Positions 9,835 through 29,206 of a stretch of DNA of 64,000 nt are shown piece by piece. The stretch is from Acidimicrobiales bacterium (GTDB lineage Bacteria > Actinomycetota > Acidimicrobiia > Acidimicrobiales > DATDAH01), in NCBI GenBank assembly GCA_016794585.1, contig JAEUJM010000026.1:65444-129443 (forward strand). Reading direction: 5' to 3'. Below the pieces are notes generated by a model, which searched no databases, was not told where the DNA came from, and worked only from the letters and a program-made list of their open reading frames with translations. Numbering within the stretch: position 1 is the stretch's first letter; the number at the start of each line of letters is the position of its first letter. Made by a program: the position numbers and the translations under genes.

Positions 9835-9860
9835 TGTCGTCGCCGCCGGCGAGCGGCGAC

Positions 9861-9878
9861 ATCCCAGGTTCCTGGGAT
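9861..9878. promoter_or_regulatory. Perfect palindrome, probable LuxR operator
   Basis: ATCCCAGGTTCCTGGGAT has 8-bp arms around TT and lies 27 bp upstream of the LuxR start and about 110 bp upstream of the divergent cupin start. LuxR-type regulators bind such symmetric sites as dimers; which gene it serves is inferred from position. Confidence 0.5.
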
Positions 9879-9990
9879 TCGGGTCGTTGCGGGAACCCTC
9901 GGTGCCCGGGATGTTCACCGCCGGCGGCGATTCGTACGGTCCGGGAGACGACCACCGTGGCCGTCGAACGACCACCCCGAGGAGCACGAC

Positions 9991-10455: not shown

Positions 10456-10481
10456 CCGTTCCCCCCTCCCCCTCCGACCCG

Positions 10482-10690
10482 GTGTCGGCCTCGCGGCCGG
10501 CAACGGGTCGGAGCGCGCCGGCGTCGGGGCGCCGGCCCCGTCGACCATCGACTTGGGGCCGTGCGACTCGGGCTTCCGGGAGTGCCGCACGGTCACCGTC
10601 CCGCTCGACCCTCGGACCCCGGGGGCGCCACCATCGACGTGGCGATCACCCGCATCCCCGCCGCGAACCAGCATCGGGCCAACTCCCAGT
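10482..10690 (+). pseudogene. Remnant of a TAP-like alpha/beta hydrolase N-terminus, frameshifted
   Basis: Reading one frame gives APSTIDLGPCDSGFRECRTV then TVPLDPRTPG, the typical N-terminal block of exported tripeptidyl-aminopeptidase-like hydrolases (family pattern: C..GFECatv.VPLDy..PgGaTIdlav.R.pA). At the run CCCCGGGGG the reading must slip by one missing G, after which GGATIDVAITRIPAANQ continues in the next frame. Similarity stops at about 10680 and no catalytic domain follows; the KshB-like gene begins at 10741. The fragment has no recognisable start or signal peptide. I read it as a decayed and truncated gene. The frameshift could be a base-calling error, but the truncation could not. 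Confidence 0.6.
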
Positions 10691-10713
10691 TGGCGAGAAT
10701 GATGATCCGTACT

Positions 10714-10734
10714 GTGGAGAATCCGATTATCATC
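10714..10734. promoter_or_regulatory. Candidate operator of the 9-3-9 TGAGAA family over the reductase promoter
   Basis: GTGGAGAAT-CCG-ATTATCATC matches the site at 50912-50932 in 7 of 9 positions in each half, with the same 3-bp centre. It covers the probable -10 TATCAT (10728-10733), which lies 7 nt before the ATG at 10741, so the message would be leaderless and blocked by a bound repressor. Confidence 0.45.
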
Positions 10735-10740
10735 GGGCCG

Positions 10741-11841
10741 ATGGCTGTCCGGGACCACGGGTTCCACGCCCTGCGCCTCGCCCGGGTGGTCGCCGAGACC
10801 GCCGACGCCGCCACGTTCGTGCTCGACGTCCCCGCCGACCTGGCCGACGCCTTCGCCTACCGGGCGGGGCAGTTCTGCACGTTCCGGGTGCCGGTGGACG
10901 ATACGCCGCTGCTGCGGTGCTACTCGATGTCGTCGGCGCCGGGCGTCGACGCCGAGCTCGCCGTGACCGTCAAGCGGGTGCCGGGCGGGCGGGTGTCGAA
11001 CTGGATGATCGACCGGCTCGCCGCCGGCGACGAGGTCGAGGTCACCCTGCCCGCCGGTGTGTTCTGCCTGACCGACGACGCCGACGACGCCGCGGCGGGG
11101 GAGCGCCCGCTCGTCGCCTTCGCCGGCGGCAGCGGCATCACCCCGGTGTTCTCGCTGATCAAGGTGGCGCTGGCCACCACGTCCCGGCAGGTGCGCCTGC
11201 TCTACGCCAACCGGGACGCCGGCTCGGTGATCTTCCGCTCGGCGCTGGACGAGCTGGCCGCCGCCCACCCCGACCGGCTCACCGTCGCCTTCCACCACGA
11301 CGACGAGTCGGGCTACCTCGACGAGGCCGCCATCCGGGTTTTCGCCGCCGGCGCCCTCGACGGCGACCACTACGTCTGCGGCCCCACGCCGTTCATGGAC
11401 CTGGTCGAGCGGGTGCTGCTGGCCGACGGCGTCGACGCCGACCGCTTCCACATCGAGCGCTTCACCCCGAGCGGCGACCCCGTCACCCCGAGCGCGAGCC
11501 CGAGCCCGAGCGCCGGCACCGACGACGAAGCCAGCGAAGGCAACGCCGACAACAAGAGCGCCGGCATCACCGTCACCATCGAGCTCGACGGCCGCACCGA
11601 GACCACCGCCCACCACCCCGGCACGACGCTGCTCCAGACCGCCCGCCAGGTGGGGCTGTCGGCGCCGTCGTCGTGCGAGGCGGGCAGCTGCGCCACCTGC
11701 ATGGGGCGGCTGGTCGAGGGGGCGGTCGAGATGTTCGTGAACAACGCCCTGACCGACGACGAGGTGGCCGAGGGGTGGGTGCTCACCTGCCAGTCGGTGC
11801 CCACCACGCCCACCGTCCACGTCGTCTACGGCTTCGAGTAG
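10741..11841 (+). CDS. Ferredoxin-NAD(P)H reductase of an oxygenase system (KshB/PaaE-like)
   Basis: This 366-aa flavoprotein has three domains: an FAD-binding barrel with LLRCYSMSSAPG (FAD phosphate motif RxYS), an NAD(P)-binding domain with FAGGSGITPVFSLIKV and YVCGPTPFMD, and a C-terminal plant-type [2Fe-2S] ferredoxin with CEAGSCATCMG and a fourth Cys in VLTCQ. A Ser/Pro-rich linker (around residues 245-275) joins the reductase and ferredoxin. Such proteins feed electrons to Rieske oxygenases such as 3-ketosteroid 9-alpha-hydroxylase. ATG 10741 seems leaderless. It is followed closely by a SnoaL-like gene and two acyl-CoA dehydrogenases in the same direction. Its oxygenase partner is not fixed by sequence; the Rieske gene at 69-1352 is a candidate. 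Confidence 0.9.
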   Translation: MAVRDHGFHALRLARVVAETADAATFVLDVPADLADAFAYRAGQFCTFRVPVDDTPLLRCYSMSSAPGVDAELAVTVKRVPGGRVSNWMIDRLAAGDEVEVTLPAGVFCLTDDADDAAAGERPLVAFAGGSGITPVFSLIKVALATTSRQVRLLYANRDAGSVIFRSALDELAAAHPDRLTVAFHHDDESGYLDEAAIRVFAAGALDGDHYVCGPTPFMDLVERVLLADGVDADRFHIERFTPSGDPVTPSASPSPSAGTDDEASEGNADNKSAGITVTIELDGRTETTAHHPGTTLLQTARQVGLSAPSSCEAGSCATCMGRLVEGAVEMFVNNALTDDEVAEGWVLTCQSVPTTPTVHVVYGFE

Positions 11842-13541: not shown

Positions 13542-14518
13542 CCGGCGACCGCATCGAAGGCGAGGACCTCGAGCTGTTCGAGCGCAGCCTGGCCCACGCC
13601 GCCGAGTCGGCGACCGGCCCGGAGCTCGACGCCGCCCTCGACGACCTCGGCTGGCTCGACGCCCTCGCGCTCGACCCCCAGGCCGCCATCGCCACGCTCT
13701 TCGCCGTCCAGGGCGCCACCAACTCGACCTCGTCGGCCCTCGACGCCGTCCTGGCCTCCTCGATCTTCACCCACGAGTGGGTCACCAGCGTCGCCAGGGC
13801 CCCGTCGGTGATCCTCCCCGGGCTCGGCACCGGCGCCGACGCCGTACCGGGGACGTTCGACGGTGAGCGGGTCGAGGTCGCCGGCCTCGCCACCGCCGCC
13901 ATCCAGCGCTCGACGCTGGCCCTGGTGGCGACGGGCCCCGGCGCCGTCGCCACGGTGCGGGTCGCCGACCTCACCGTCGAGCCCATCGCCGGCATGGATC
14001 CCGCCCTGGGCCTGTCCCGCGTGTCCGGCACCGTCGTGCCGGCGGCGGCGCCGGTGGACGCCGACTGGGAGGCCGCCGTCGCCCTCGGCCGCATGGCCCT
14101 GAGCGCCGAGATGATCGGCGCCTGCCGCACGATGCTCGAGCTGGCCCGCACCCACGCCCTCGAGCGCCTCCAGTTCGGCGTGCCCATCAGCTCGTTCCAG
14201 GCCGTCCGCCACCGCCTCGCCGAGGCCCTGGTCGCCATCGAGGCCGCCGCCGCCAGCTGCGACGGCGCCTGGGCCGACGCCACCCCCTTCACCGCCATGG
14301 TCGCCAAGGCCACCGCCGGCCGCACCACCCGCACCGTGGCCCGCCACTGCCAACAAGTCCTCGCCGGCGTCGGTTTCACCGCCGAACACGACTTCCACCA
14401 CCACCTGAAGCGGGCACTCGTCCGCGATCAACAGCTCGCTGGCGCTCCGGTCCTTGCCCACGCGATCGGAGCGGTACTTCTTGTTGTTGGGGAGTCGCAG
14501 GGTCTACAGCCGTTGTGA
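13538..14518 (+). CDS. Acyl-CoA dehydrogenase family protein (second of a pair); 3' end of foreign codon use
   Basis: This 326-aa protein is the smaller, more divergent partner: RLQFGVPISSFQAVRHRLAE in the helical domain and AGVGFTAEHDFHHHLKRAL near the C-terminus, where related partners read TWE. The N-terminal half is weakly conserved, as usual in this subtype. ATG 13538 overlaps the preceding stop. The last 40-45 codons are odd: from about 14380 GC-ending codons give way to CAA, GCT, GGA, GTA, CTT, GTT and CTA. The protein still ends plausibly (ESQGLQPL), but the switch coincides with the edge of the lower-GC restriction island, suggesting that the insertion replaced the 3' end of the gene. 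Confidence 0.85.
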   Translation: MTGDRIEGEDLELFERSLAHAAESATGPELDAALDDLGWLDALALDPQAAIATLFAVQGATNSTSSALDAVLASSIFTHEWVTSVARAPSVILPGLGTGADAVPGTFDGERVEVAGLATAAIQRSTLALVATGPGAVATVRVADLTVEPIAGMDPALGLSRVSGTVVPAAAPVDADWEAAVALGRMALSAEMIGACRTMLELARTHALERLQFGVPISSFQAVRHRLAEALVAIEAAAASCDGAWADATPFTAMVAKATAGRTTRTVARHCQQVLAGVGFTAEHDFHHHLKRALVRDQQLAGAPVLAHAIGAVLLVVGESQGLQPL

Positions 14519-14681
14519 GCAGGCGGCGATCGATACCGCCTTCTCGACCGATCGACTTGCGACCGAACTGCGATACTCGGACTCGGGCGGACTCGTGTCA
14601 GCCTCGACGGTTCAGCGTGAAGTGGCCGTGGGCTCCAGGAGGTCGACGGCCGCATGCCCGGAAGGAGATGTTCCGTCGCTA
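14519..14681. other. Gap at the left edge of the defence island
   Basis: 163 bp between the convergent acyl-CoA dehydrogenase and hsdR genes. GC content is lower than in the flanking chromosome. I see no tRNA, no attachment repeat matching the other edge near 28680, and no clear terminator hairpin. It probably holds the junction of the acquired segment. Confidence 0.4.
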
Positions 14682-17600
14682 TCAGCTGAGCCCGAAAAAT
14701 CGGTCGAAGAACTCGCTGAGCCTGCCGAGAACGGTCTGCTTCTTGGCAGCGTGCCCGCTGCTCGACCCGAACCGGGAGACCGGCGGAATGACCTTTGTGA
14801 TCGCGGTTCCGCTCGGCTGAACGGCACCGTCGCGGAAGGCTGCGTCGATGAACGAGCGGGTGGCTTCGGGATCGAGATCCTCCTCGGCGATGATGCGGTC
14901 GAGCTCCTCCGTTCGCTTCGCGGCGACGAAGGTGGCCCAGGCTCCGTCGACGTCGGCGCTGGCCGAGAGCGAATCCACGAACTCTTCGATGAGGTCCTTC
15001 TTGTTGCGCAGCGAGGGGCTCGAGGACACGGCTCGGTCAATGGCGGCACGGATCTCCTTGGCGTCGCCGTCGCCCTTCACAGCGCGGTACTGCTCGACGA
15101 GCATCAGGATGTAGTCGACGTTGATCTCGACCTGCTTGATCAGCTCGATCTCGAAGACGACCTCTTCGTGGATCGGCTCCTTGTCGGCGTCGCTCTGGCC
15201 GCGGAAGTCCTGGTACAAGTTGAGGTAGACGCTCTGGTAGTCCTGCATCGCACGCAATGTGAGGACCTCGTTGCCGGCGAAGTCGTCGAAGGAGCAGAGG
15301 ATGTTCCGGAGGCGCAGGATCGCACCGAATAGCGTGATGAACGCCTTCTGCGCAGTCTCTCCCACGATCGGTTGGCCGAGCGGGAAGTCGGTCTGCAGCT
15401 CCGTGACACGCTCGGCGTACTCGTCGTAGTACTCGGCATACGGCTTGAGGAGCACGATCCCTCGTGCGTCCTTGTTGCCGAACAGGGCGATGGCGTCGTT
15501 GGTCGCCTCTTCGAGGTCGCGGAAGCTGACGATGTTGCCGAAGGTCTTGACCGAATTAAGGATCCGGTTTGTCCGTGAATACGCCTGGATCATCCCGTGG
15601 GACCTGAGGTTTTTGTCGACCCACAGCGTGTTTAGCGTCGTGGCGTCGAAACCGGTGAGGAACATGTTGACCACAATCACGAGGTCGATCTCGCGGTTCT
15701 TCAGCCGCAGCGACAGGTCCTTGTAGTAGTTCTGGAACTTGTCGGCGGTCGTGTCAAAGCTGGTCCCGAAGATGTCGTTGTAGTCCTGGATGGCGTGCTC
15801 CAGGAACTCCCGCGCGTCGAAGCCGAGGGCGTCGGTCTCGAACTCCTCCTCGGGCAGTAGATCGTCAGGCTCGGCCTCGTTGGGGGTGTAGCTGTAGATC
15901 AACCCGACCTTGAGCTGCTGGTCCGACGGCAGGTCCTTCTGCTGGAGGTAGAAGTTGCTGTAGTAGCGCCGGGCGGCCTCGATCGATGCCGTGGCGAGCA
16001 ACGAGTTGAAGCCACGGACGCGCTTGCCTTGGAGGCTGTAGTGGGAGGCCCGCTTCGTCTTCTGGTCAAAGTGCTCACGGATGTAGGCGACGATCTGCTC
16101 GATGCGCTTGGGTGCGAGCAGCGCGTTCTCCTTGTCGATAGCGCTTACCTGCTTGTCCGCGATCGACTCGGGCATTTTGACGGTGTTCACGTAGTCGATC
16201 CGGAACGGAAGCACGTTCTTGTCGGTGATGGCGTCGACGATGGTGTAAGTGTGCAGCTTGTCGCCGAACGCCTGCTCTGTCGTGCGCAACTGCGGATTGC
16301 CGCCGGCGCCAGCGTTGGCGGCGAAGATCGGCGTCCCCGTGAAGCCGAAGAGGTGGTACCGGCGAAACGCCTTGGTGATCGCGGTGTGCATGTCGCCGAA
16401 CTGTGAGCGGTGGCACTCGTCGAAGACGATTACGACGTGGCCGTCGTAGATCTCGTGGCCCTTGTTGGCGGCGATGAAGGTGCTGAGCTTCTGGATCGTG
16501 GTGATGATGATCCGTGCCGCCGGGTCCTCAAGCTGCTGCTTGAGGACCCGAGTCGACGTGTTTGAGTTGGCGGCCCCCTTCTGGAAGCGGTCGTACTCCT
16601 GCATCGTCTGGTAGTCGAGGTCCTTGCGGTCCACGACGAAAAGCACTTTGTCGATCGTCGGCATCGCACTGGCGAGTTGCGCCGTTTTGAAGCTCGTGAG
16701 GGTCTTGCCAGAGCCAGTCGTGTGCCACACGTACCCGCCGCCCGCGACCGTGCCCCACTTCTTGTAGTTGGACGAGACCTGCACGCGACCCAGGATCTGT
16801 TCGGTCGCGACGATCTGGTATGGACGCATCACGAGCAGCGTGTGATCGGCGGTCAGCACGCAGTAGCGGGTGAGGATGTTCAGCAGCGTGTGCTTGGCGA
16901 AGAAGGTCTTGGCGAAGCCCCGAAGATCCTCGATCGGCTTGTTGGTCGCGTCTGCCCACCAGCTCGTGAAGGCGAAGCTGTTCGAGGTCCTGCGAGCCCG
17001 CTTCCCACCTGACCGCTCGGTGATGTGCTGCGCCCGGACCGTGTTGCTGTAGTACTTCGTGAGCGTGCCGTTGGTGATGACGAACAGCTGTACGTACTCG
17101 AACAGCCCGGACCCGGCCCAGAAGCTGTCTCGCTGGTAACGCTTGATCTGGTTGAACGCCTCTCGGATGTCGACACCCCGGCGCTTGATCTCGATGTGAA
17201 CCATCGGGAGGCCGTTGACGAGGACGGTCACGTCGTACCGATTGGCGTAGGTGCCGGTGACCTCGTACTGGTTGATCACCTGGAGACGGTTGTTGTGGAC
17301 GCTGGCTTTGTCGATCAGCGAGACGTTCTTCGTCGTTCCGTCATCTCGCTGGAGGAGCTGAACGTGGTCCTCTTGGAGCCGGGTCGTCTTCTCGACGGGG
17401 CCGTCCTTGGCGCTGGCGATGCGCTCGGAGAAGAACCGCTCCCACTCGGCCTCGGAGAACTCGATCCCGTTCAGCGCCTCGAGTTGGGTTCGAAGGTTGG
17501 CGATCAGCCCTTCCTCGCTCGTGAGCGGGAGGTACTCGTAGGCCTGCTCCTGGAGGAGGTCGAGGAAGGCGCTCTCGAGGTCGGCCTCGGACTGGTACCC

Positions 17601-17696
17601 GCTCTCGTGTGTCGCGTCGGCGACGAACTCAGCGACGACGGTGCTCTGCGAGCTGACGGCGATCGGCTCGTAGCGCGGAACCGATCCGTCGCTCAC
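14682..17696 (-). CDS. hsdR: Type I restriction endonuclease, R (translocase/nuclease) subunit
   Basis: This 1004-aa protein is the motor-nuclease subunit of a type I restriction system, which translocates and cuts unmethylated DNA. The N-terminal PD-(D/E)xK nuclease is visible at D155 and E169-I-K171 (VHIEIKRRG). The helicase core shows Walker A HTTGSGKT (325-332), DECH (426-429), TGTP (453-456) and a motif VI QAYSRTNR. The C-terminal helical region, which binds the methylase, is complete, giving normal family length. The GTG at 17696 follows GAGGAGGCCAC and overlaps the hsdS stop (GTGA). Codon choice is less GC-extreme than in the flanking genes, supporting acquisition. Confidence 0.96.
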   Translation of the reverse strand: MSDGSVPRYEPIAVSSQSTVVAEFVADATHESGYQSEADLESAFLDLLQEQAYEYLPLTSEEGLIANLRTQLEALNGIEFSEAEWERFFSERIASAKDGPVEKTTRLQEDHVQLLQRDDGTTKNVSLIDKASVHNNRLQVINQYEVTGTYANRYDVTVLVNGLPMVHIEIKRRGVDIREAFNQIKRYQRDSFWAGSGLFEYVQLFVITNGTLTKYYSNTVRAQHITERSGGKRARRTSNSFAFTSWWADATNKPIEDLRGFAKTFFAKHTLLNILTRYCVLTADHTLLVMRPYQIVATEQILGRVQVSSNYKKWGTVAGGGYVWHTTGSGKTLTSFKTAQLASAMPTIDKVLFVVDRKDLDYQTMQEYDRFQKGAANSNTSTRVLKQQLEDPAARIIITTIQKLSTFIAANKGHEIYDGHVVIVFDECHRSQFGDMHTAITKAFRRYHLFGFTGTPIFAANAGAGGNPQLRTTEQAFGDKLHTYTIVDAITDKNVLPFRIDYVNTVKMPESIADKQVSAIDKENALLAPKRIEQIVAYIREHFDQKTKRASHYSLQGKRVRGFNSLLATASIEAARRYYSNFYLQQKDLPSDQQLKVGLIYSYTPNEAEPDDLLPEEEFETDALGFDAREFLEHAIQDYNDIFGTSFDTTADKFQNYYKDLSLRLKNREIDLVIVVNMFLTGFDATTLNTLWVDKNLRSHGMIQAYSRTNRILNSVKTFGNIVSFRDLEEATNDAIALFGNKDARGIVLLKPYAEYYDEYAERVTELQTDFPLGQPIVGETAQKAFITLFGAILRLRNILCSFDDFAGNEVLTLRAMQDYQSVYLNLYQDFRGQSDADKEPIHEEVVFEIELIKQVEINVDYILMLVEQYRAVKGDGDAKEIRAAIDRAVSSSPSLRNKKDLIEEFVDSLSASADVDGAWATFVAAKRTEELDRIIAEEDLDPEATRSFIDAAFRDGAVQPSGTAITKVIPPVSRFGSSSGHAAKKQTVLGRLSEFFDRFFGLS

Positions 17697-18922
17697 GTGG
17701 CCTCCTCGAATGTGAGGAGCCGATCCCGGTAGTACTCGTACTGCGTCCGCCGGGCGACGATCTCAGCAGGTAGGCCGACGGATAGGTCGTTCACGAGTGC
17801 GTCGAACGTGTCGAGGACTTGGGCGATGCGCGCCTGCTCCGCGAGCGGCGGCAAGGCGATCGGGTACTTCTTCACGATCCCCATGTTGAGGTCGGAACGA
17901 TTGCCCTGGCCCCTAGATCGGAGGTCTTCATAGTGCTGCACGAGCCAGTAGTACACGTATCGGTAGTGGGCCGCGTCCGGTTCGATTTCAAGAGCGCAGC
18001 AGTGCTGGTTCGTCGTGAGGGGGATTCTGTTCACGGCTACCCGGCCCCGGGTCACACCGGCTCCCGAGATCGCCACGATCACACTGTTCGGAGAAACCCA
18101 GCGGGCTGCGGAGTTGTCGAGCCCGGCCTTAGTGATCTTCACCTCGGTGTCGACGATGTCAGCGTAACGAACCTCCTGGGTTCGCAGCCAGGGGATGTCG
18201 CCCCCGTAGAAGTCGGCGCGAGTGGAGAGAGGCGTACCCCCAGCGGAAACGAGCCGACAGATGTCAGCCAGCGTGACCCACTCGATCCCACTCTCGAACG
18301 TCAGCAGTGCCTTGCGGTAGTGCGCGTACTGGCGTCGTCGCGCCTGCAGCTCCGCCTGCAGCTCCGCCTGCAGCTCCGCCTGCAGCGACTCGAATGAGTC
18401 TAGGACTCGAACGACCTCCTCCTGAACCTCAAGCGGAGGTACTGGGATGCGGATCCTCTCGAGACCCGTGCGCGAGATTCGACGGACCTTGGCGCCGGTG
18501 ACATGTCGCCGCTTCTGAGTTTGGAACTGCTCGGACTGAAAGAAGTACGAGACGTACCTGGGGTCGAGCGAGTGGCGGTAAATTACCGCATCGGTGCCGA
18601 CTGCGACCTCATCATCACCGAGCCACGCGACTGCCTTTCCAACAGACTCGTCGTCCTCGCTGGTCGTTGCGATGACGACATTACCGGTCTTCGCCCGACG
18701 ACTACGTGCGGCCTGCTCAGGCGTCACGAACGACTTCGTTTCCGTTGCCGACGTTCCGTAGTGGGTATGGATCTGGCCATAGTGGATGCAGCCGACGCCC
18801 TCGTCGACGAAGTCAGACTTCTGGATCCCGCTCCCACGTTCGAACTCACCCAGGTCACCGAGCGCGCGGAACTCGACGCCGTTCGGGCAGCGCTCACGGA
18901 GCAGATCTTCTATCCGACTCAC
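17693..18922 (-). CDS. hsdS: Type I restriction-modification specificity subunit
   Basis: This 409-aa protein has two target-recognition domains, each followed by a conserved helix: TRD1 about 15-165 ending RIRIPVPPLEVQEEVVRVLD, and TRD2 about 213-370 ending YPIALPPLAEQARIAQVLDT. Between them lies a coiled spacer with the tandem repeat (LQAE)n at residues 180-195, encoded by an exact 12-bp repeat. In EcoR124-type systems the number of such 4-residue repeats sets the distance between the two DNA half sites. The GTG at 18922 overlaps the accessory gene's stop (GTGA). The target sequence cannot be predicted from sequence alone. Confidence 0.95.
   Translation of the reverse strand: MSRIEDLLRERCPNGVEFRALGDLGEFERGSGIQKSDFVDEGVGCIHYGQIHTHYGTSATETKSFVTPEQAARSRRAKTGNVVIATTSEDDESVGKAVAWLGDDEVAVGTDAVIYRHSLDPRYVSYFFQSEQFQTQKRRHVTGAKVRRISRTGLERIRIPVPPLEVQEEVVRVLDSFESLQAELQAELQAELQARRRQYAHYRKALLTFESGIEWVTLADICRLVSAGGTPLSTRADFYGGDIPWLRTQEVRYADIVDTEVKITKAGLDNSAARWVSPNSVIVAISGAGVTRGRVAVNRIPLTTNQHCCALEIEPDAAHYRYVYYWLVQHYEDLRSRGQGNRSDLNMGIVKKYPIALPPLAEQARIAQVLDTFDALVNDLSVGLPAEIVARRTQYEYYRDRLLTFEEAT
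18341..18386. repeat. 12-bp tandem repeat in hsdS encoding LQAE units
   Basis: The unit CGCCTGCAGCTC occurs three times (18341-18376) plus 10 of 12 bases of a fourth. It encodes LQAELQAELQAELQA in the linker between the two target-recognition domains. Copy-number change would keep the frame and alter linker length. Confidence 0.9.
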
Positions 18923-19725
18923 GGCGTCCGATCGGCGATCGGGGACTGCTCGTCGCCTTCCCAACCCAGCGTCGCAATTGCAGCAGCGAACTCGCTGCGG
19001 TTTCGAACGTTGCTCACAACCCCGAGAATGAGCCTGCGGCACGGATCGTACTTCTCAAGAGCTTCGGCTTCGTCGGCATCGCCATGTATGACATTACTGA
19101 GTTCCGCGAACAAGGTGTAGCCATTCTCGGCGAATTCGGTTGGAATGATCCGCGCTTGGCCATCGACCTCTTGAAGGAGCAGTCTGAAGTTCTTCCGCCT
19201 ACCGTTCGGGTGTGTCGTCGCGATTCCAGCGGCCACGGCAGCCTCCATGGTGAGAGATTCGAAGATCTTCCTCAGGTAGATCATGGCGCCGGCGCCAAGG
19301 CGATCATCGAAAGCAATCTGCGCCCTTTCGAACAGGTCGTCGATCTGTTCGATGCGCAGTCCTTGCGCTCCCGCTAGATCCCGGCGATTCTCAGTGAATC
19401 GCTGCAAGTACACCTCGGGCGCCGGGGAGTACAGGTCATCGCCACAACCAATTAGGAACCACGCTTCGGCCCCCGACCCGCAGCCGGAACAACGAAGCGC
19501 CACATCGATGCTCAGCACCTGTTCCCCGGCCACAAGACACGAGAGCTTTTCGCCAGAAACGAAGCTCCTCGTGTCTCCACACGCCAGACAGAAGTGGTTC
19601 CTGACAACCCTGCCGGCCGTTATCAACCGCTGTGCGCCCCACGAGACCTTCCGAGAACCAAGGAAGTTTTCGACCTGAGTCCTCGACGTATCTGGGGCTC
19701 TGTTCAAGACCTCCGACAGCCGCAC
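18919..19725 (-). CDS. Accessory protein within the hsd operon: zinc ribbon plus DUF4145-like domain
   Basis: This 268-aa protein lies between hsdM and hsdS and overlaps both. The N-terminal part has two Cys pairs, CLACGD and CSGCGS, fitting a zinc ribbon (about residues 46-83). The C-terminal part resembles DUF4145: IDDLFERAQIAFDDRLGAGA, MIYLRKIFESLTMEAA, then ELSNVIHGDADEAEALEKYD with the conserved HG pair. DUF4145 proteins are common passengers of restriction loci with no defined biochemical role that I know. The GTG at 19725 shares its first base with the hsdM stop (TAGTG). Tight coupling argues that it works with the restriction complex. Confidence 0.75.
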   Translation of the reverse strand: MRLSEVLNRAPDTSRTQVENFLGSRKVSWGAQRLITAGRVVRNHFCLACGDTRSFVSGEKLSCLVAGEQVLSIDVALRCSGCGSGAEAWFLIGCGDDLYSPAPEVYLQRFTENRRDLAGAQGLRIEQIDDLFERAQIAFDDRLGAGAMIYLRKIFESLTMEAAVAAGIATTHPNGRRKNFRLLLQEVDGQARIIPTEFAENGYTLFAELSNVIHGDADEAEALEKYDPCRRLILGVVSNVRNRSEFAAAIATLGWEGDEQSPIADRTP

Positions 19726-21284
19726 TACGACGAGCCTTCAAGGTCTTCGACGATCTGATCGATAGCGGTCCGGAGCTCCTGCTCACGAGCAACAATACGG
19801 ACGATCTCGGCGTTCAACACCACGATGTCAACCGGCTCGCGAGTATCTCGCTCCTCGACATAGGAGGAGACCGACAGGTTGTAGTCGTTTTCAGCGATCA
19901 CCGAGTTGTTAACCAAGCAAGCGAAGTGGTCTGCGTCGCCTCTCTCGATGAAGGCCTCGAGGATGGTGTCCTGGTTCTCCGGTGTGAGCTTGTTCTTGTT
20001 GCCACCCCGGACGAACTGGGTCGACGCGTCGATGAAGAGCGTTTTGTTGTCGGCCTTGGACTTCTTCAGCACGATGACGCAGGTTGCGATGGTTGTGCCG
20101 AAGAAGAGGTCTGGCGGCAGCTGGATCACGGTGTCGACGTAGTTGTTGTCGATTAGGTACTTGCGGATCTTCTGCTCGGCCCCGCTGCGGTAAAGCACGC
20201 CGGGGAACTCGACGATCGCCGCCGTTCCGTTCACCGCGAGCCAGCTGAGCATGTGCATCGTGAAGGCGAGGTCAGCCTTGCTCTTCGGCGCGAGAACACC
20301 GGCGGGGGCGTAGCGCGGGTCGTTGATCAGGAGCGGGTTGGCGTCGCCCTCCCATCGAATCGAGTACGGGGGGTTCGACACGATCGCCTCGAACGGTTCG
20401 TCGTCCATGTGGGCCGGATCGGTCAGTACATCGCCGTGGGCGATGTCGAACTTCTCGAAGTTGATGTCGTGTAGGAACATGTTGATCCGGCACAGGTTGT
20501 AGGTCGTGAGGTTGATCTCCTGACCGAAGAAGCCCTGGTGCACGTTGTCCTTGCCGAGCACCTTGGCGAACTTGAGCAGGAGCGAGCCGGACCCGCAGGC
20601 GGGGTCGTAGACCTTGTTCACCTCGGTCTTGCCCACGACGGTGATCCGGGCGAGCAGCTCGGACACTTCCTGTGGCGTGAAGAACTCGCCGCCCGACTTG
20701 CCGGCACCCGAAGCGTACATCGTCATCAGGTACTCGTAGGCGTCGCCGAACGCGTCGATCGAGTTGTCGGCATAGGAGCCGAGCCCGAGGTCTCCGACCG
20801 CGTCGAGCAGCTTCACGAGCTTCTCGTTGCGCTTGGCAACAGTCGGGCCGAGCTTGGAGCTGTTGAGGTCGAGGTCGTCGAACAGGCCCTTGAGGTCGTG
20901 TTCGCTGGGCGTGCCGAGGGCCGAACCTTCGATGTGGTTGAACACCTGCTCGAGGGTCTCGTTGAGGTTCTCGTCGTTCCGAGCTCGCTTGCGGACGTTG
21001 ACGAACAGCTCGGTCGGCGGGATGTAGAAGCCCTTCTCGGCGACGGTGTCCGCTCGGCCAGACTCGGCGGCCTCATCGTCGAGGTCGGTGTAGGCGAAGT
21101 CCGGGGCGCCCGACCTGTGCTCGTGCTCGTCGATGTACGCGGTTAGGTTCTCGGAGATATATCGGTAGAAGAGCATCCCGAGCACGTACTGCTTGAAGTC
21201 CCAGCCGTCGACGCTGCCGCGGAGGTCGTTGGCGATCCGCCAGATCGTCTTGTGCAGGTCGGCTCGCTGCGCTTCCTTCGTCAT
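19725..21284 (-). CDS. hsdM: Type I restriction-modification DNA methyltransferase (M) subunit
   Basis: This 519-aa protein is an N6-adenine methyltransferase. The N-terminal helical HsdM domain starts LHKTIWRIANDLRGSVDGWD. The catalytic domain shows FFTPQEVSELL, the SAM-binding motif DPACGSGSL (about 227-235) and the catalytic NPPYS (304-308). The C-terminal coil after about 470 contacts HsdS. ATG 21284 is chosen because it is the conserved N-terminus (MTKEAQRADLHKTIW). A possible -10 (TACAGT on the minus strand, 21319-21324) in the 118-bp gap upstream suggests its own promoter besides read-through from the helicase gene. It forms one coupled unit with the accessory, hsdS and hsdR genes. Confidence 0.96.
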   Translation of the reverse strand: MTKEAQRADLHKTIWRIANDLRGSVDGWDFKQYVLGMLFYRYISENLTAYIDEHEHRSGAPDFAYTDLDDEAAESGRADTVAEKGFYIPPTELFVNVRKRARNDENLNETLEQVFNHIEGSALGTPSEHDLKGLFDDLDLNSSKLGPTVAKRNEKLVKLLDAVGDLGLGSYADNSIDAFGDAYEYLMTMYASGAGKSGGEFFTPQEVSELLARITVVGKTEVNKVYDPACGSGSLLLKFAKVLGKDNVHQGFFGQEINLTTYNLCRINMFLHDINFEKFDIAHGDVLTDPAHMDDEPFEAIVSNPPYSIRWEGDANPLLINDPRYAPAGVLAPKSKADLAFTMHMLSWLAVNGTAAIVEFPGVLYRSGAEQKIRKYLIDNNYVDTVIQLPPDLFFGTTIATCVIVLKKSKADNKTLFIDASTQFVRGGNKNKLTPENQDTILEAFIERGDADHFACLVNNSVIAENDYNLSVSSYVEERDTREPVDIVVLNAEIVRIVAREQELRTAIDQIVEDLEGSS

Positions 21285-21402
21285 CACCGCGCTTCCCGAT
21301 GGTCGTTGAGGTCGCTCGACTGTACGGCATGGACCGCCCAGGGCGGCCGACCGCTCATCGGCCAACGAGCTCCCCGACCGACCGGACGTTGAGGCGCCCC
21401 TG

Positions 21403-22335
21403 TCAACTGTGCAGCGACAGGTCCATCGTGAGCTGCTCGGCAAGTTTCGCCGGCAGCGGCACGCGCTCGGCCTGGCGCTCGGTCGCCCACTCGCTTGAGT
21501 CGGGGGTCTCACCCATCACGACGCCGAACCAGCGCTCGCGGTCCTTGACGACACGGAACATCTTTTCGTCGTGCGTGCCGCCCAGGTACGGCTCGTAGAC
21601 GACGACTGGTTTCCCGAGGCGCTCGCCGAGCGAGGCGATGCGGTCGACCCGTCCAGTGCGCTGCTCCAGCGTACTCGGGTTCCAGTCCAGGTCGTGGTGG
21701 ATGACGTGGTGGCAGTCGCGGTGCAGGTCGACTCCCTCCGCCATCACCGAGCTGGCCACGAGGACCTCGGGGAAGAACGGCGTGTTGAACGCGAGCATCA
21801 GGCGCCGGCGGGTCGTCGCCTGCACGCCACCATTGGCGAGGCGGACGTTGGGCAGGAGCGTCTCGCGCCGGGCCGAGCGTTCGGACTCGTCGAAGTCCTC
21901 GGTGACCGCGGTGATGCTGCCGGTCTGGATCCGGTGGAGCGCGTCGAGGAGGTCGTCGCGTTCAGTGTCCACCTTCTGTGCGAGCAGCTCAGCGAAGGCT
22001 CGGACCCGGTCCGCGAGCGTCAGCCCACCGAGGAGACGATGCTCGAGCCCATCGAGCAGGTCGTCGGGGGTGGTGGCCGACGAGAGGTCCACGAAGCGCA
22101 CAAGGAACGATGGGGTTCGCATGAACCGGATGACGACGTCGGCGACAGCTTCGGCCGACTCGGCGTCGGACACGCCGGCAACGGAGGCGACACGAGACCG
22201 GAACCGCTGGAAGCCGCTGCTGTCGGAGCGAAGAAGCCGTTCAGCAGTTCGGTCGAGCTGCGCGACGACGGCGTCCTCATCGGCGGGATCGATGGAGAAC
22301 GCACGCCCGCTCCGTTCGAGGACCTCAGCGCGGGA
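21403..22335 (-). CDS. SNF2-like helicase, C-terminal part (separated by a frameshift)
   Basis: About 310 codons encode the second RecA-like half of the helicase whose first part ends at 22325. Continuing from the break the frame reads RAEVLERSGRAFSIDP, and near the end carries helicase motifs V and VI: VMAEGVDLHRDCHHVIHHDL then WNPSTLEQRTGRVDRIAS. There is no convincing own start; an in-frame ATG at 22410 lies inside the overlapping first part and would give unrelated N-terminal residues. Dropping one C from CTCCCGC at about 22331-22337 joins both parts into one protein of about 908 aa. I treat this as an interrupted gene. Confidence 0.8.
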   Translation of the reverse strand, partial: SRAEVLERSGRAFSIDPADEDAVVAQLDRTAERLLRSDSSGFQRFRSRVASVAGVSDAESAEAVADVVIRFMRTPSFLVRFVDLSSATTPDDLLDGLEHRLLGGLTLADRVRAFAELLAQKVDTERDDLLDALHRIQTGSITAVTEDFDESERSARRETLLPNVRLANGGVQATTRRRLMLAFNTPFFPEVLVASSVMAEGVDLHRDCHHVIHHDLDWNPSTLEQRTGRVDRIASLGERLGKPVVVYEPYLGGTHDEKMFRVVKDRERWFGVVMGETPDSSEWATERQAERVPLPAKLAEQLTMDLSLHS

Positions 22336-24130
22336 GCGCGCGCGAGATGTGTGCTCGCAGCGCCTTGCCGGTCTCGACATAGAAGCAGAACACGAGCACC
22401 TTCTCGCCATCCCGCCAGAGCGATGTCACCCGGTCGACCACCGCCCGCACCTTCGGATGCGATGCCCAGCCGTCGGTGGTGTCGTCGGGTAGCTCCGCAC
22501 TGATCCGATCGAGGTACCAGCGCAGGCGGGGAGAGTCGGCAACGCGGTCGGCGACCGCGTCGCCGGCATCGTCGTCGAGGACGGCCGTACGGTTCCGCCG
22601 CGTGTCGGCGTAGGCCTCGAACGAGGAGGCGAGTCCGTACGCGAAGTACGACCGTGCGGCTGCGGCGCCGTCAGGGCGGACCAGGCTCGACACGGCCTGC
22701 GCCCGCGCTGCCAGGAGGAACGGAAGCGTTGCTGGCCCGTCGACGGCGAGGCCGCTGTCGGAGCGGCTCGCGTCGGTGATGCCGGCGCCTGGCAGGTACC
22801 GGCGCCGGTGGGCCTTGTCGGCCCGGGCATGGCGGATCACCCACGGACGAAGGCGCAGCTCGGCGTCGTCCAGCTCGGTGGCGGCCTGAGCGGCGACCTC
22901 CAGCGCGGTGCGAACCGGCTCGGGCTGCTCGGGTGTGGGCTCGAAGGACATGAGCGCCTCGACCGCCGGCGCGTCCTCGGGCGCAATACGGGCCCAGGCC
23001 CGTTCGAGGCGGAGCGCCGACGCCTGCGCCCGGTCGAGCGAGATACGCAGGGTGTCCAGCTGTTCGTCGAACGCGGCACGCGTGGTCTTGTTCGCCCATC
23101 GGATGCCGTGAAAGCGGTCGAGCACGCTGACGAGCTCGTGGTGGCCGAGCTGGAAGGGGGTGGCAGTCAGGAACAACATCCGCTCGAACATGCCGCCGAG
23201 CGGTCCCTGCAGCGCAACGACGTCTGCCTCGGCCTCGTCATTGGTCAGCAGGCGCGAGAGCTGGTTGGCGTTCTTGACGTGGTGGGCCTCGTCGAGGATG
23301 AGCAGCGGCAGGGCCTCGTCGAGGTGGCCGAGGCACTCCTTCCAGGTCTCGGTCATCGTCCGCCGGAGCTGCGCCCGAACCGCCTTCAACTTGCGGTCCA
23401 GCGAGGCGTTGTTGTGCACCGGCATCGACGCGACGACCTCGCGCACCGGACCGAGGTCCACGGCCTTCATCGCCCGGAGGGCGCTGAAGGGGACGGGGTC
23501 GTCATCGAGCGGGTGGTTGGGACGCCACCGGTTCCACGTGTCCTTCCAGCGGGTCGGCGGCACCGCGAGGAGCGCCTCGACGACGTCGGGACCGAAGGGC
23601 GCGTTGAACAGCTTCTTGGAGTAGCGGGCGATCGCCCGGCGACGGTTGGCGAGCGCAGGCCGGTTCGCCGTTGCCTGGCGGATGATCGCGAGCTTGATGA
23701 ACGGGTCGTTGAGCTGCCTCGTGAGCGCCCCGTGGGTGACGAAGATCAGGTGCTTCCGGCTGCGCGCCGGGTCGTCGAGCAGCTTGAGGAAGTCGCTGCC
23801 GCTGCGGACCGGCTCGGAGGCGCGCAAGCCGTGCCCTGGGGTCAGACACCGCTCGGAGAACACGGCCCACTCGGTCGGCCACTTCTCCGCCACGGCAGAA
23901 GGCACCATGATCACCACCGGGCGACGCCTCCGTGTGGCCTCGAGCACCGAGACAGCGACGGCAAGGGCGACGTAGGTCTTGCCCATGCCCACCTCGTCGG
24001 CCAGCACGATCCCGGGCTGGCTGTCGAGCCGGCGCAGGATCTCGGTGGCTGTGGCGGTCTGGCGGTCGGCGTCGGTGTCGGCGACGCGGTCGTTCCGCAT
24101 CGAGATCCGCGGGCTGATGGGCCACCTCAT
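22325..24130 (-). CDS. SNF2/DEAH-type helicase, N-terminal part (frameshifted gene)
   Basis: This 601-codon frame holds RecA domain 1 and the start of domain 2 of a large superfamily 2 helicase: Walker A ADEVGMGKT (44-52), DEAH (280-283), TATP (322-325), and the motif IV region VLVFCFYVETGKALRAHISR just before the stop. The reading frame then ends at a TGA two codons after CTCCCG, while the matching continuation runs in the next frame (21403-22335). ATG 24130 overlaps the PLD gene stop as ATGA. It is the third gene of an unknown/PLD/helicase cassette. The helicase would translocate on nucleic acid; its exact role and whether it is functional are uncertain. Confidence 0.85.
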   Translation of the reverse strand: MRWPISPRISMRNDRVADTDADRQTATATEILRRLDSQPGIVLADEVGMGKTYVALAVAVSVLEATRRRRPVVIMVPSAVAEKWPTEWAVFSERCLTPGHGLRASEPVRSGSDFLKLLDDPARSRKHLIFVTHGALTRQLNDPFIKLAIIRQATANRPALANRRRAIARYSKKLFNAPFGPDVVEALLAVPPTRWKDTWNRWRPNHPLDDDPVPFSALRAMKAVDLGPVREVVASMPVHNNASLDRKLKAVRAQLRRTMTETWKECLGHLDEALPLLILDEAHHVKNANQLSRLLTNDEAEADVVALQGPLGGMFERMLFLTATPFQLGHHELVSVLDRFHGIRWANKTTRAAFDEQLDTLRISLDRAQASALRLERAWARIAPEDAPAVEALMSFEPTPEQPEPVRTALEVAAQAATELDDAELRLRPWVIRHARADKAHRRRYLPGAGITDASRSDSGLAVDGPATLPFLLAARAQAVSSLVRPDGAAAARSYFAYGLASSFEAYADTRRNRTAVLDDDAGDAVADRVADSPRLRWYLDRISAELPDDTTDGWASHPKVRAVVDRVTSLWRDGEKVLVFCFYVETGKALRAHISRALPR

Positions 24131-26130
24131 CGGGCAGCCGCCTTCAGGGCGTCGGTCACGTACCGGTCGATGGCGCCATCGGCGGACGATGAGAGCTCGG
24201 CTCGATGGAGATCGATCGCCTGGATCGCCTCCGACACGACTCTTCGGACTGTCGTCTTGGGCAGCTTCGGGGCGGCGGCCTCCCAGTCGACGGCGGCGAC
24301 GGTCAGTGCGAGCTCAGCGAGCAGGAAGTGCGGCTCGCCGGGTAGCAGATCGCCGGCTCCGTCGGCGGCGAGCAGCCCGTCGGCGATGGCGAGCGGGCCG
24401 AAGGGCCCCTGGAGGCGCCAACGGAGGGCGTCCAGGCTGGATGCCGGGCGCGCCAGGCGCTCCTCGAGGCGCATCAGGGCGAGGGACACCCGCCGGGTGC
24501 GCTGCAGCAGGAGCGACCGATCGTCGAACCGCTTGAGGGGGTCGAGCTCGGCTCGACCGTTGGCCTCCGCCGCACGCTCCTGCCGTCGAAGCTCTCGCTC
24601 GACAGCTTCGGGCAGGGGACGGGTGGAGGCAAGCGCCTCGAGCAGCAGCGCCACGGGCAGGTCACGAAGCTCCTCGGGTGGCGGGAGCGCACCGCGATCC
24701 TCGACGTTCGCCGTCCAGGTGGCACGCACCTGCCCCTCGGCATCGGCCCACCGGACCGCCAGGAACGCGGGGAGGATCGCGTCCGGCAGCGGGATCGAGA
24801 CCGTCTCCGGCGAGCCTTCGGCGCGCCATGCACTGACGTCCAGGAGCTCGATGTCGGTCGGCGTGTTGACCGTCCATCGGACTGGCAGGTCGTCCCGTGA
24901 GAAGGTGAGCGTCACCGCTGGCGGGTCGGGCTGCACGACGCAGGACTGGAACCCGAGCGGGAGGGTCGGCGCTGTCGGTTCGTCCTCGTCATGATCCGGG
25001 TCCCACACGGCGTCATCGAGATCGATCGGGGCGCCGGCCCGGGTGAGTGCACGCAGGGCCTTGGCCTCCTTGGATCCTGCAGGGCAGCCGATCCAGACGT
25101 TGAGCTCGTGGTGCCCACGTCGCGGGTGGAGCCTGTAGCCGGCCTCGGTGGCGTTGGAGGAGCCGATCATCGCCGCCACCCACTCGTCGCTCTCGACGAC
25201 GAGCACCTTGGCATGGAGCAGGCGCTGTTCGGCGTCGTCGGGTTCGAACGCCACGAGGTCGAGCCCGCGCTGGCGCGCCATCGACACCGGCGCCTTGACC
25301 GCCTCCGTACGCGGATCAACGGCGGCGACGGCAACGAGGCCGCGCCGACTGGCGGGCCGTCCGGTGAGCAGCTGACCGATGGCGTCGAGCGCGGGAGCAG
25401 GCGCGGCGTCGTCCCAGAACGGCGACAGCACAGTCGCCCACAGGGGTTGCGGGCCTCGCCACACCGCGCGGAGCTGGTCCAGCGGGCTACGACCAGGTCG
25501 TGCCGGCGCGACGGCGAGCCGCAGGTTGCGGTCACCGGTAATGGGTAGCGACAGCGCCTGCACTCGTTCGGTAAGGAGGTCGAGCGTCGCCGACGCGCGG
25601 CTCTTCGGGCCGGCCAGTCCCGGGTCGTCGGGTGCGAGCTCGACGAGAACTCGGAGCTCGCTGACGAGGTCGTCGAGCACACTCCGCGGGACGGAGCAGT
25701 TCGAGTCGAGGTCGATGGCGATCGCCGTCTCGACCTGCTGGCGGTACCCGGCTGGGGTGAGGTTGGCCGACCCGACGACGACGCGCCCGGCCCGCTCCCA
25801 CAACAGCACCGCGACCTTGGCGTGCAGTAGCCCGCCCGGTGCCGCGACGGGCAGGAGATCCCAGCGAAGGTTCCGCTTCTCGCTGGCGGTGCTGCGATCG
25901 GCGAGCACACTGACCTGGACCTCGCTGAGTCGATCCTCCATCTCCAGGACCGCGGCGATGCTCGAGATGCGGTCGCCCTCGCTGGGCACCGACGAGAGCG
26001 ACAAGAACCGGGACAGGCAGTCCTCGTCGAAGAAGTCGGCCTGGAACGTGAAGGTGGTGGCGAGGGCCGCGACCGGTTCGCCAGCGCCTTCCGGTGGTGA
26101 CCAGTAGTCGAGGAGACGGGGCGCGCTCAT
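24127..26130 (-). CDS. Phospholipase-D-type (HKD-like) protein, probable nuclease of a defence cassette
   Basis: This 667-aa protein has two PLD-like half sites: LLHAKVAVLLWERAGRVVVG with SAN (H103, K105, S121, N123), and LLHAKVLVVE with IGSSNATEAG (H306, K308, S324, N326). In the classical HxKx4D motif the Asp is replaced by Leu110 in the first and Glu313 in the second, a feature to test. The C-terminal 300 residues are unassigned. PLD-fold proteins beside helicases in defence loci usually act as nucleases (compare DrmC of DISARM). ATG 26130 and its stop both overlap neighbours as ATGA, so it is translationally coupled to the unknown protein and the helicase. Confidence 0.82.
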   Translation of the reverse strand: MSAPRLLDYWSPPEGAGEPVAALATTFTFQADFFDEDCLSRFLSLSSVPSEGDRISSIAAVLEMEDRLSEVQVSVLADRSTASEKRNLRWDLLPVAAPGGLLHAKVAVLLWERAGRVVVGSANLTPAGYRQQVETAIAIDLDSNCSVPRSVLDDLVSELRVLVELAPDDPGLAGPKSRASATLDLLTERVQALSLPITGDRNLRLAVAPARPGRSPLDQLRAVWRGPQPLWATVLSPFWDDAAPAPALDAIGQLLTGRPASRRGLVAVAAVDPRTEAVKAPVSMARQRGLDLVAFEPDDAEQRLLHAKVLVVESDEWVAAMIGSSNATEAGYRLHPRRGHHELNVWIGCPAGSKEAKALRALTRAGAPIDLDDAVWDPDHDEDEPTAPTLPLGFQSCVVQPDPPAVTLTFSRDDLPVRWTVNTPTDIELLDVSAWRAEGSPETVSIPLPDAILPAFLAVRWADAEGQVRATWTANVEDRGALPPPEELRDLPVALLLEALASTRPLPEAVERELRRQERAAEANGRAELDPLKRFDDRSLLLQRTRRVSLALMRLEERLARPASSLDALRWRLQGPFGPLAIADGLLAADGAGDLLPGEPHFLLAELALTVAAVDWEAAAPKLPKTTVRRVVSEAIQAIDLHRAELSSSADGAIDRYVTDALKAAAR

Positions 26131-27431
26131 GGGGCGGTGTCGGAGAGGAAGCGCCGGACGGCAGCGACCCGCACCGGGTGGATGAAGCGGCCGTCGAGCA
26201 CCGGTTCGTCGGGGGTTCCGTAAGACGGACGCACGACCCACCCGTCTCGAAGCGGCTCGAACCACGGTCGCTTGCCGTTGGGGGGCTTGTGGGCCTGCAC
26301 CTGCTCGTGATGGCCCATGACGACCTCGACGAGCTCGGAGGGGCTGCGTCGGATGGCGAGCTCTCCGAGGTCTTGCTCCATCTGGCCGATGGCGTCGATC
26401 GCAGCCATCTGCTCGATCGCTCGTTCGAACAGCGACGGAAGCTCCTTGGCGCCACGGACGATCGTCCTGTGCGTGGCCGCGTTGGAAGGGGCCATGGGCT
26501 TGGTGCCGAGTGCGTAGGAGATCGAGCAGAGCGTCCGGAACACGGCGTCGGCGAGCGCAGCGAACCGCTCGTAGGCGATGACGGCGTCCACGACCGCGCC
26601 GAGGGACGGCGAGCACTGGGGTCGGACCGCGAGCAGCAGGCCTGCCTCTCTAGCGTCGTCGATCTCGCCGACGTTCGCGAGGAGGCGAGCGAGCTCGGCA
26701 CGGCCCTCGTGGTGGGGTGACAGCAGGAGCATGCGGAGGTGGTGGCGCTCGGCGGCGTGCGCGTGGTCCGGATGAAAGGTGGCGGCCAGGCGCCCGAAGA
26801 GCCAGGAGCCCGTCTTCGTGGTGACGTGGTCGTTGGCGAGCGCGCTGCGCACGGCGTCTCGGATATCCCGGCGGAGCGTCGCTCCGTTGCTGCGAGGCAC
26901 GTCGTCGGTGAAGCCCTCCGCGTCGTTCTCCCGCTCCCACTCGCGGACCAGCTCGGCGCATCGACCGGCTGGCTCGAGGTTCGCATCGACGATGTCGGCG
27001 TCGACCGAGAACGGCTTGTAGACACCGTTGAAGCCGAACACCTTCGGGCCCTTCAGATAGGTCGGGGCCGACAGTCGCTGCTGCCGGGCGACGACGTTCC
27101 GGGCCTTGTTGACGCCCGGGACCCCGGGAGGGATCTCATTGGGGCGCAGCCGGCGGACGAACGCCTCCAACACGACCCACTCGAAGCAGATCGGTGGCGT
27201 CGATACCTGGTCGGCCGCTGGGACCTCACCCAGCCCGTCGCAGGCGAGAGCGCCCACCGCCGTCGCCGTGACGAACCGCATCCGCTGCATCCGCGATCGG
27301 ATGCCCGGCACGAGACGGTCGGCCAGGCGGTCCGAGATCGCCGCCAACCCGATCGGGTCGAGGCTTCCCTCTCCGGCGACCGGCGGGTCGTAGGCCGACA
27401 GCTCCGGCAGCGTGAGCCCCGCGATCGCCAC
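26127..27431 (-). CDS. Unrecognised 434-aa protein, first gene of the island operon
   Basis: I do not recognise a family. The protein is soluble and mixed alpha/beta with no signal peptide or membrane segment. Notable stretches are a region rich in basic residues (VNKARNVVARQQRLSAPTYL, then KGPKVFGFNGVYKPF) and a helical C-terminal half ending PNGKRPWFEPLRDGW and FIHPVRVAAVRRFL. The GTG at 27431 follows AGGACTTCC, and the stop overlaps the PLD gene as ATGA. Conserved coupling with a PLD protein and an SNF2 helicase suggests a recognition or structural subunit of a three-part defence complex. That role is inferred from context only. Confidence 0.7.
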   Translation of the reverse strand: MAIAGLTLPELSAYDPPVAGEGSLDPIGLAAISDRLADRLVPGIRSRMQRMRFVTATAVGALACDGLGEVPAADQVSTPPICFEWVVLEAFVRRLRPNEIPPGVPGVNKARNVVARQQRLSAPTYLKGPKVFGFNGVYKPFSVDADIVDANLEPAGRCAELVREWERENDAEGFTDDVPRSNGATLRRDIRDAVRSALANDHVTTKTGSWLFGRLAATFHPDHAHAAERHHLRMLLLSPHHEGRAELARLLANVGEIDDAREAGLLLAVRPQCSPSLGAVVDAVIAYERFAALADAVFRTLCSISYALGTKPMAPSNAATHRTIVRGAKELPSLFERAIEQMAAIDAIGQMEQDLGELAIRRSPSELVEVVMGHHEQVQAHKPPNGKRPWFEPLRDGWVVRPSYGTPDEPVLDGRFIHPVRVAAVRRFLSDTAP

Positions 27432-27848: not shown

Positions 27849-28658
27849 CTACCTGGGTCTCCGGGCGCGCAAGAAATCGCGCGCTGCGGCGGGATCGTCG
27901 AATGTTCCTGCCGCGATTCCGGCCATTCCCACAGGGAACGAGGCGAGAGCGGGAATGCCGCCCCCAGCAACCGCTGGTACGTCTGCCATGACGATGGTGG
28001 CGCCGGCCAATACAGACACAGCGCGCCCAAAGCTGCGCAGCCAACTGGGTGAGTTGGGTTCACCGGCAACTTGCTCTGCATCCAGTTGTTCGGCGAGATC
28101 TCGGATCCTGGCTCTCACCGCTTGACCGTCAGGAAACCGGTTCACGCGGCTAGCTGCCTCAGCCGCTTGCTCGATGACCATCTGCAATACCGTCGTCGCT
28201 GCTGGACTTAGGTTCGGCGCCAAATCGTGCACGAGCTCGATTTCCTGCGCGAGGAAAGTGTTGTCGTCCAAGATCTCGATCGGTACAGGTTCAGCATTTC
28301 GAATGACCTGATCCCAGCTGTCCCAGAAACTGTCACTGTCTGCTAACTGTTGAAGGATGGCGGCGACATCATTGCCTGAGCCAGCGACGACGTTGATAAA
28401 TGCCTGGGGGAGCCATGGCAACGAGGTGAAGCCGGACACGTGCTCCTGGGACAGGGCCATGCGCAGAAGGTACTCCAAGTGACCGAGTGAGTCTCTAGCT
28501 CCCTGCGCTTGCGCAACGAGTCCGGTCACGAGCCTGTACGTCGACTCGGGTGTGTACGACGGCTCGCACGAGGTGCATTTCTTGGCAGCGGATTCCTCGT
28601 TGACGGAGGAAGAGCGCTCTAGCTGCAGCGATACTCCAGCCTCGCCTAGGTTCGACAC
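27849..28658 (-). CDS. Hypothetical protein with hydrophobic C-terminal region
   Basis: This 269-aa frame is not recognised. It has a Cys pair near the N-terminus (KKCTSCEPSYTP), a long helical middle (LVTGLVAQAQGARDSLGHLE, AATTVLQMVIEQAAEAASRV) and a hydrophobic, Gly/Ala-rich stretch near the C-terminus (AVSVLAGATIVMADVPAV, then FPVGMAGIAAG) that could cross a membrane. The GTG at 28658 is the first plausible start after the acyl-CoA dehydrogenase fragment that ends at 28682; no strong ribosome binding site is seen. Codon use is less GC-biased than in the flanking chromosome, so it belongs to the island. An abortive-infection-type membrane protein is one guess without direct support. Confidence 0.55.
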   Translation of the reverse strand: MSNLGEAGVSLQLERSSSVNEESAAKKCTSCEPSYTPESTYRLVTGLVAQAQGARDSLGHLEYLLRMALSQEHVSGFTSLPWLPQAFINVVAGSGNDVAAILQQLADSDSFWDSWDQVIRNAEPVPIEILDDNTFLAQEIELVHDLAPNLSPAATTVLQMVIEQAAEAASRVNRFPDGQAVRARIRDLAEQLDAEQVAGEPNSPSWLRSFGRAVSVLAGATIVMADVPAVAGGGIPALASFPVGMAGIAAGTFDDPAAARDFLRARRPR

Positions 28659-28681
28659 CGATGTGGGCGAACGATTTCTGC

Positions 28682-29206
28682 TTACCTCGGCAGCCCGAGG
28701 ACCCTCTCGGCGATGATGTTGCGTTGGATCTGGCTGGTGCCGCCGGCGATGGTGCCGGCGAAGCTGCGGAGGTAGAGGTCCCACCAGCTGGCGCTGACGA
28801 ACTGGGACTGGAGGGCGGACTTGGGGGCGCCGGGGAGGTCGGGGTCGAGCGCGGCGGGGCCGAGGGACTCGACGAGGGCGAGGTTGGCGGCCTGGCCGGC
28901 CTCCGATCCCATGAGCTTGAGGATGGACTGCTCGGCGGCCTCCATGCCCTTACGGGCCTTGGCCAGGGTGCGGTAGCCGAGGAGGCGCATGGCGTAGGCG
29001 TCGACGACGAGGTTGCCGAACCAGTCCTCGACGATGGGGTCGTGGGCGGCGCCGGCCCGCTCGAGGGTGACGGGGCCCCACTGGACCATGGACTCGAGGC
29101 GGGTGGCGAAGCCGAGCCAGAGCATGGCCCGTTCGTGGCCGAGGGAGCCGTTGGCGACGCCCCAGCCCCGGTTGAGCTCGCCGACGAGGATCTCGGCGGA
29201 GACGTC
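28682..29206 (-). pseudogene. Duplicated 3' fragment of an acyl-CoA dehydrogenase gene
   Basis: This segment encodes the last ~175 residues of the acyl-CoA dehydrogenase at 31256-32449 (from about LVGELNRGWGVANGSLGHER to IIAERVLGLPR, then TAA). The nucleotide sequence is nearly identical to 31258-31779, with scattered single-base changes, and ends abruptly at about 29206, where unrelated sequence begins. There is no start codon context and no FAD/substrate N-terminal half, so it is a non-functional copy. With the intact gene it makes direct repeats of about 520 bp that bracket a 2-kb cargo (29207-31257). Confidence 0.88.

Follow-up and report, generated by a model that had tools for sequence, protein, structure and literature searches.

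ZacABC and PDC-M27ABC are named candidate anti-phage systems, each formed by three genes in the same order. ZacA of PADLOC corresponds to the Pfam family DUF6361, and ZacABC loci on plasmids of Halomarina, Cronobacter and Bradyrhizobium display the arrangement DUF6361, PLD-superfamily protein and helicase. PDC-M27 loci in Rhodoferax and Vibrio have an A protein of ~460 aa followed by a PLD protein and an SNF2-type protein, and these systems are also located on plasmids. The PDCs are candidates from guilt-by-embedding and mostly await validation (PMC12988326); two tested PDCs displayed no activity in one host (PMC12409345). In the literature searched, no paper describes ZacA/B/C, ZacABC, PDC-M27 or DUF6361, and none reports anti-phage activity for this group.

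Described here is a three-gene cassette (genes A, B and C) at positions 21403-27431 of a 64,000-nucleotide stretch of DNA from an Acidimicrobiales bacterium, referred to as the window. The cassette is probably a third, uncatalogued branch of a ZacABC/PDC-M27ABC superfamily of three-gene candidate anti-phage systems.

Organization of the locus

All three genes are on the minus strand (Table 1). As originally predicted, they are joined by ATGA overlaps, at 26130-26127 between A and B and at 24130-24127 between B and C. Matches to Pfam and family models also bear out that the cassette is upstream of, and in line with, a complete hsdM/accessory/hsdS/hsdR operon.

Table 1. Coordinates of the cassette genes and of adjacent features in the window
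Feature	Position	Strand	Remarks
311-aa ORF	27849-28784	-	upstream of gene A; no Pfam match; GC 0.61
Gene A	27431..26127	-	GTG start; 434 aa
Gene B	26130..24127	-	ATG start; 667 aa; PLD-superfamily protein
Gene C, 5' piece	24130..22325	-	ATG at 24130; 601 codons; SNF2-type motor lobe 1
Gene C, frameshift zone	around 22325-22350	-	frame change; break in a CG-rich stretch around 22,330-22,350
Gene C, 3' piece	22410..21403	-	different frame; motor lobe 2
hsdM	19725..21284	-	start ATG 21284 inferred from family profile
Accessory ORF	18919..19725	-	268 aa; between hsdM and hsdS
hsdS	17693..19042	-	family match from residue 42; true start probably nearer 18919
hsdR	14682..17696	-	EcoR124-type

The accessory ORF has an unusual position inside a type I restriction-modification (RM) operon, and has no Pfam, PADLOC or NCBIfam match.

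The cassette had also been proposed as an accessory module or extension of this RM operon. It is on the same strand and upstream of it, and HsdR is also encoded near the cassette in a Bacteroidetes relative (L021). The distance between the end of gene C and the inferred hsdM start is about 118 bp, however, and thus C and hsdM are not translationally coupled. The RM genes have a GC content of 0.59-0.63. The window as a whole stands at 0.711, and A, B and the 5' piece of C at about 0.70-0.71; within window positions 14000-22000, GC falls to 0.60-0.65 over the RM operon. This drop suggests that the RM operon and the triplet were acquired separately. In addition, the window and L021 are the only two of 19 loci at which type I RM genes were recognized, with the neighbor genes scanned in part; most relatives show none, and neighbors differ between loci, with Wadjet, methylases and UvrD nucleases among them. 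The extension reading is therefore very unlikely, and the adjacent operon is an independent neighbor of lower GC content.

Recurrence and distribution of the triplet

Two short patterns from gene A, run once against 85,000 genome species, yielded 18 loci. Gene B is directly downstream of A at all of them, and gene C is found at all 17 where the contig continues. Recurrence of the triplet in other genomes, which had been the expectation, was thus observed as far as the contigs run, and the constancy of the A-B-C order shows the triplet to be a real unit, beyond chance. The loci are partly redundant: L019 is nearly identical to L025, and L006/L008 and L011 represent one locus. Four phyla are represented: Actinomycetota, Pseudomonadota, Verrucomicrobiota and Bacteroidota. 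Sources include Gordonia, Dietzia, Nostocoides, Dactylosporangium, Microlunatus, Cupriavidus, Ideonella, Luteibacter, HdN1, a Verrucomicrobia MAG and a Bacteroidetes MAG.

A, B and C give strongly correlated distance matrices (r 0.94-0.96; Mantel p 0.0001), which signifies that the genes travel together. In the trees, verrucomicrobial, actinobacterial and proteobacterial copies are interleaved, a pattern that suggests horizontal transfer of the cassette. It is a rare cassette: within the phylum it was found in 3 of 396 genomes, one of these being a weak match with internal stops, and among 59 close relatives it is present only in the window genome itself. No close relatives turned up when plasmids and viral contigs were searched with A and B.

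Gene A, a predicted helical protein with remote counterparts

The first gene was originally described as not recognized, and this holds for single-protein scans: the window protein finds nothing in Pfam, PADLOC or NCBIfam, and a signal appears only once it is aligned with its relatives. What did not hold is the lack of any counterpart, as the alignment reveals a distant homologue of ZacA (DUF6361) and PDC-M27A. By itself, the window protein scores E 0.016 against the PADLOC ZacA model and does not match the DUF6361 model; the best DUF6361 value among gene-A members is E 0.083, in one member. The ZacA model is matched by 11 of 17 gene-A proteins (best 3.3e-5) and the PDC-M27A model by 4 of 17 (best 3.2e-5).

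Profile-profile alignments with hhalign give a clearer picture. A against ZacA has P 2.5e-5 and a score of 47.2, compared with 25.8 for the best of 200 decoys, and the alignment is a colinear N-terminal segment. A against PDC-M27A has P 3e-7 over 389 columns and a score of 60.4, compared with 24.7 for the best of 100 decoys. Mismatched controls (A against ZacB or ZacC) remain at P 0.1-0.15. A direct comparison of ZacA with PDC-M27A gives no match (P 0.27). Judged from these comparisons, the link between A, ZacA and PDC-M27A is one of remote homology, well supported for the window group against each of the other two. In a viral-labelled contig with an intermediate triplet, the A protein is recognized by the window profile (5.7e-9) as well as by PDC-M27A (2.6e-13).

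The predicted structure of A is mostly helical (pLDDT 87.5, pTM 0.85). In the fold search no solved fold rose above background; the best Foldseek hit has E 0.47 and the best VIA hit Z 5.3, a value within noise for helical proteins. This null does not prove that the fold is new. Gene A represents a family without a known fold, and is named here as the likely sensor or adaptor.

Gene B, a PLD protein with a predicted Tdp1-like fold

Gene B displays the Pfam domain PLDc_2 and two HxK...N motifs, H103/K105/N123 and H306/K308/N326, both in its N-terminal half. The two motifs are invariant in 15 of 15 relatives, and the aspartate of classical HKD motifs is absent. The closest structural match of the predicted fold is tyrosyl-DNA phosphodiesterase 1 (Tdp1): the first 380 residues of the AlphaFold2 model (pLDDT 85) superimpose on Tdp1 with Z 22.3 and an rmsd of 3.6 over 317 residues. 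Two HKN rather than HKD motifs in one chain, with a predicted PLD pseudo-dimer fold, are features that this half shares with Tdp1. Gene B differs from Tdp1 in having an extra C-terminal half, predicted to comprise a beta-rich region and then a helical C-terminus, and in having operon partners; its sequence has no match among PDB chains. The protein is presumably a nuclease, and Tdp1-like HKN chemistry offers a specific hypothesis for how the PLD component may perform catalysis.

Gene C, an interrupted SNF2-type motor

The 5' piece of gene C matches SNF2/ResIII in Pfam and carries the motifs GMGKT (Walker A), DEAH and TATPF; the 3' piece matches Helicase_C and carries EGVDLH, HHDLDWNP and EQRTGRVDR. 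The closest PDB sequence matches of gene C are RapA. In all 14 full-length relatives gene C is uninterrupted, a single ORF of 903-944 aa. Programmed frameshifting was considered and rejected, since none of these 14 relatives needs it.

The frameshift signifies that the window copy of C is inactive or that the break is an assembly error; unless it is such an error, the window cassette is probably inactive. That the window carries a decayed pseudogene remnant, whatever its ancestor did, is a substantial possibility, rated just short of probable, and one compatible with a third branch of the superfamily. Besides the frameshift itself, split copies are found elsewhere: B is split in a Pseudonocardiales MAG (L015, 9871-11852), and both A and B are split in the complete genome of HdN1 (L026, 10001-12420). 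Decay of the cassette therefore does occur within the branch. Against this, A and B of the window are intact, and B and C retain every catalytic motif, so that any decay would be recent or, again, the break an assembly error.

Comparison with DISARM

A PLD-superfamily protein together with an SNF2-like helicase is a combination also found in DISARM, and the cassette might be viewed as a DISARM variant or remnant, with the PLD protein as DrmC, the helicase as DrmD and the core genes lost. B does match DrmC weakly, C matches DrmD, and three relatives have DrmD-, DpdE- or DrmMI-like neighbors. The matches are, however, far under the cut-offs of the NCBIfam DISARM models (29 vs 133 bits for DrmC; 43-65 vs 610 bits for DrmD). 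Gene B, with 667 aa and two motifs, contrasts with DrmC models of ~240 aa. In the C tree the cassette proteins fall together with ZacC/PDC-M27C, and two DrmD-like proteins and one DpdE-like protein lie outside this group (support 96/91, long branches); gene A has no DISARM counterpart. DrmA and the DUF1998/MZB protein (DrmB) are absent from the locus; the sole MZB hit of the genome is on contig C15, whereas the cassette is on C26. No DrmA/DrmB-type genes linked to the triplet were seen in the neighborhoods examined. The separation from DISARM that was first proposed is thus upheld, and a DISARM variant or remnant is extremely unlikely.

A probable third branch of the ZacABC/PDC-M27 superfamily

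When the proteins are compared with PADLOC models, ZacB is matched by 15 of 15 gene-B proteins, and PDC-M27C and ZacC by 14 of 14 gene-C proteins. The PADLOC check thus connects B with ZacB/PDC-M27B and C with ZacC/PDC-M27C, with A connected only remotely. hhalign results for B and C against their Zac and PDC-M27 counterparts are stronger than, or similar to, those for A. In both the B and C trees the window group, Zac and M27 form three clades with long stems (support 100/99 for C and 97/98 for B). All three genes have homologues in the same order in both named systems.

With ZacABC the cassette shares the one-strand order A-PLD-helicase with overlapping ends, a DPLG...D...PG motif in the N-terminal region of A, a two-motif PLD protein and an SNF2-type motor. 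It differs in that A is similar across only ~100 N-terminal residues, the curated models do not identify the first gene as ZacA/DUF6361, ZacC is larger (~1,045-1,101 aa), and B and C fall outside the ZacB and ZacC clades in a clade of their own. With PDC-M27ABC there is the same three-gene order, the long alignment of A and a strong likeness in the lobe-2 core of C. The differences are the separate, well-supported clades with long branches and the partial matches to the PDC-M27 models, which do not extend across most of the models: none for the window A protein, 5e-5 over ~50 residues for B, and 1.3e-14 and 4e-24 over short core stretches for the two pieces of C.

The IMG/VR contigs L053 and L055 carry, at about 4437-11477, an A-B-C triplet intermediate between PDC-M27 and the window branch. 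Queries of viral contigs with ZacA and PDC-M27A returned none. PDC-M27A was not found in the 396 genomes of the phylum, a null that does not show absence.

The original prediction of a separate anti-phage system stands in part: the cassette is a defence-like unit apart from DISARM and RM. It is better viewed, however, as an uncatalogued branch of a candidate superfamily, ZacABC/PDC-M27, of which two branches are already named.

Neighboring genes and possible function

Defence-type neighbors are present at 9 of 19 loci, a raw count without a background rate (the window, L010, L011, L012, L013, L018, L020, L021 and L023). They comprise type I RM, Wadjet JetC/DUF3584, DrmD-like helicases, DpdE/DrmMI-like genes, an Eco57I/MmeI-type methylase and a UvrD + PD-(D/E)XK pair.

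The pair of UvrD helicase and PD-(D/E)XK nuclease adjoins triplets of different branches (L050, L058, L054 and L012). The settings are Zac loci of Bradyrhizobium and Rhizobium, a viral-labelled contig with B-C, and a Cupriavidus MAG that carries the window branch. The pair may be a recurring partner module.

The likeness of B to Tdp1 in its best structural matches, and of C to RapA in its best PDB sequence matches, could also point to a DNA repair or end-processing module, formed by a Tdp1-like enzyme and a RapA/SNF2-like motor, with no part in defence. The patchy distribution across phyla argues against such a role, as do the defence-type neighbors, the plasmid location of the sister systems and the decayed copies (L015, L026 and the window). 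A repair function is therefore considered unlikely, and the preferred reading is an anti-phage function, in which A, B and C would presumably form a complex.

As the unit combines a DNA motor with a phosphodiesterase, the most economical model, and the likely one, is an ATP-driven attack on invading DNA. According to this model, gene C would act as an ATP-dependent double-strand DNA translocase that engages invading or replicating foreign DNA. Gene A would recognize a feature of the foreign DNA, or couple the motor to the nuclease. Gene B would use the two HxK...N active sites of its Tdp1-like fold to break DNA phosphodiester or end-adduct bonds via a phosphohistidine intermediate. A more specific proposal is that of a separate defence type, whereby the Tdp1-like HKN phosphodiesterase, the SNF2 motor and a new-fold helical sensor attack covalently capped or adducted ends of invader DNA and do not act as a plain endonuclease. 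Targets might then be terminal-protein phages and relaxase-linked plasmid strands. This proposal is regarded as quite improbable.

ZacABC and PDC-M27, catalogued apart, can now be viewed as one probable superfamily with a third branch that curated models have missed. If active, this branch would add to the catalogue a widespread, horizontally moving anti-invader system.
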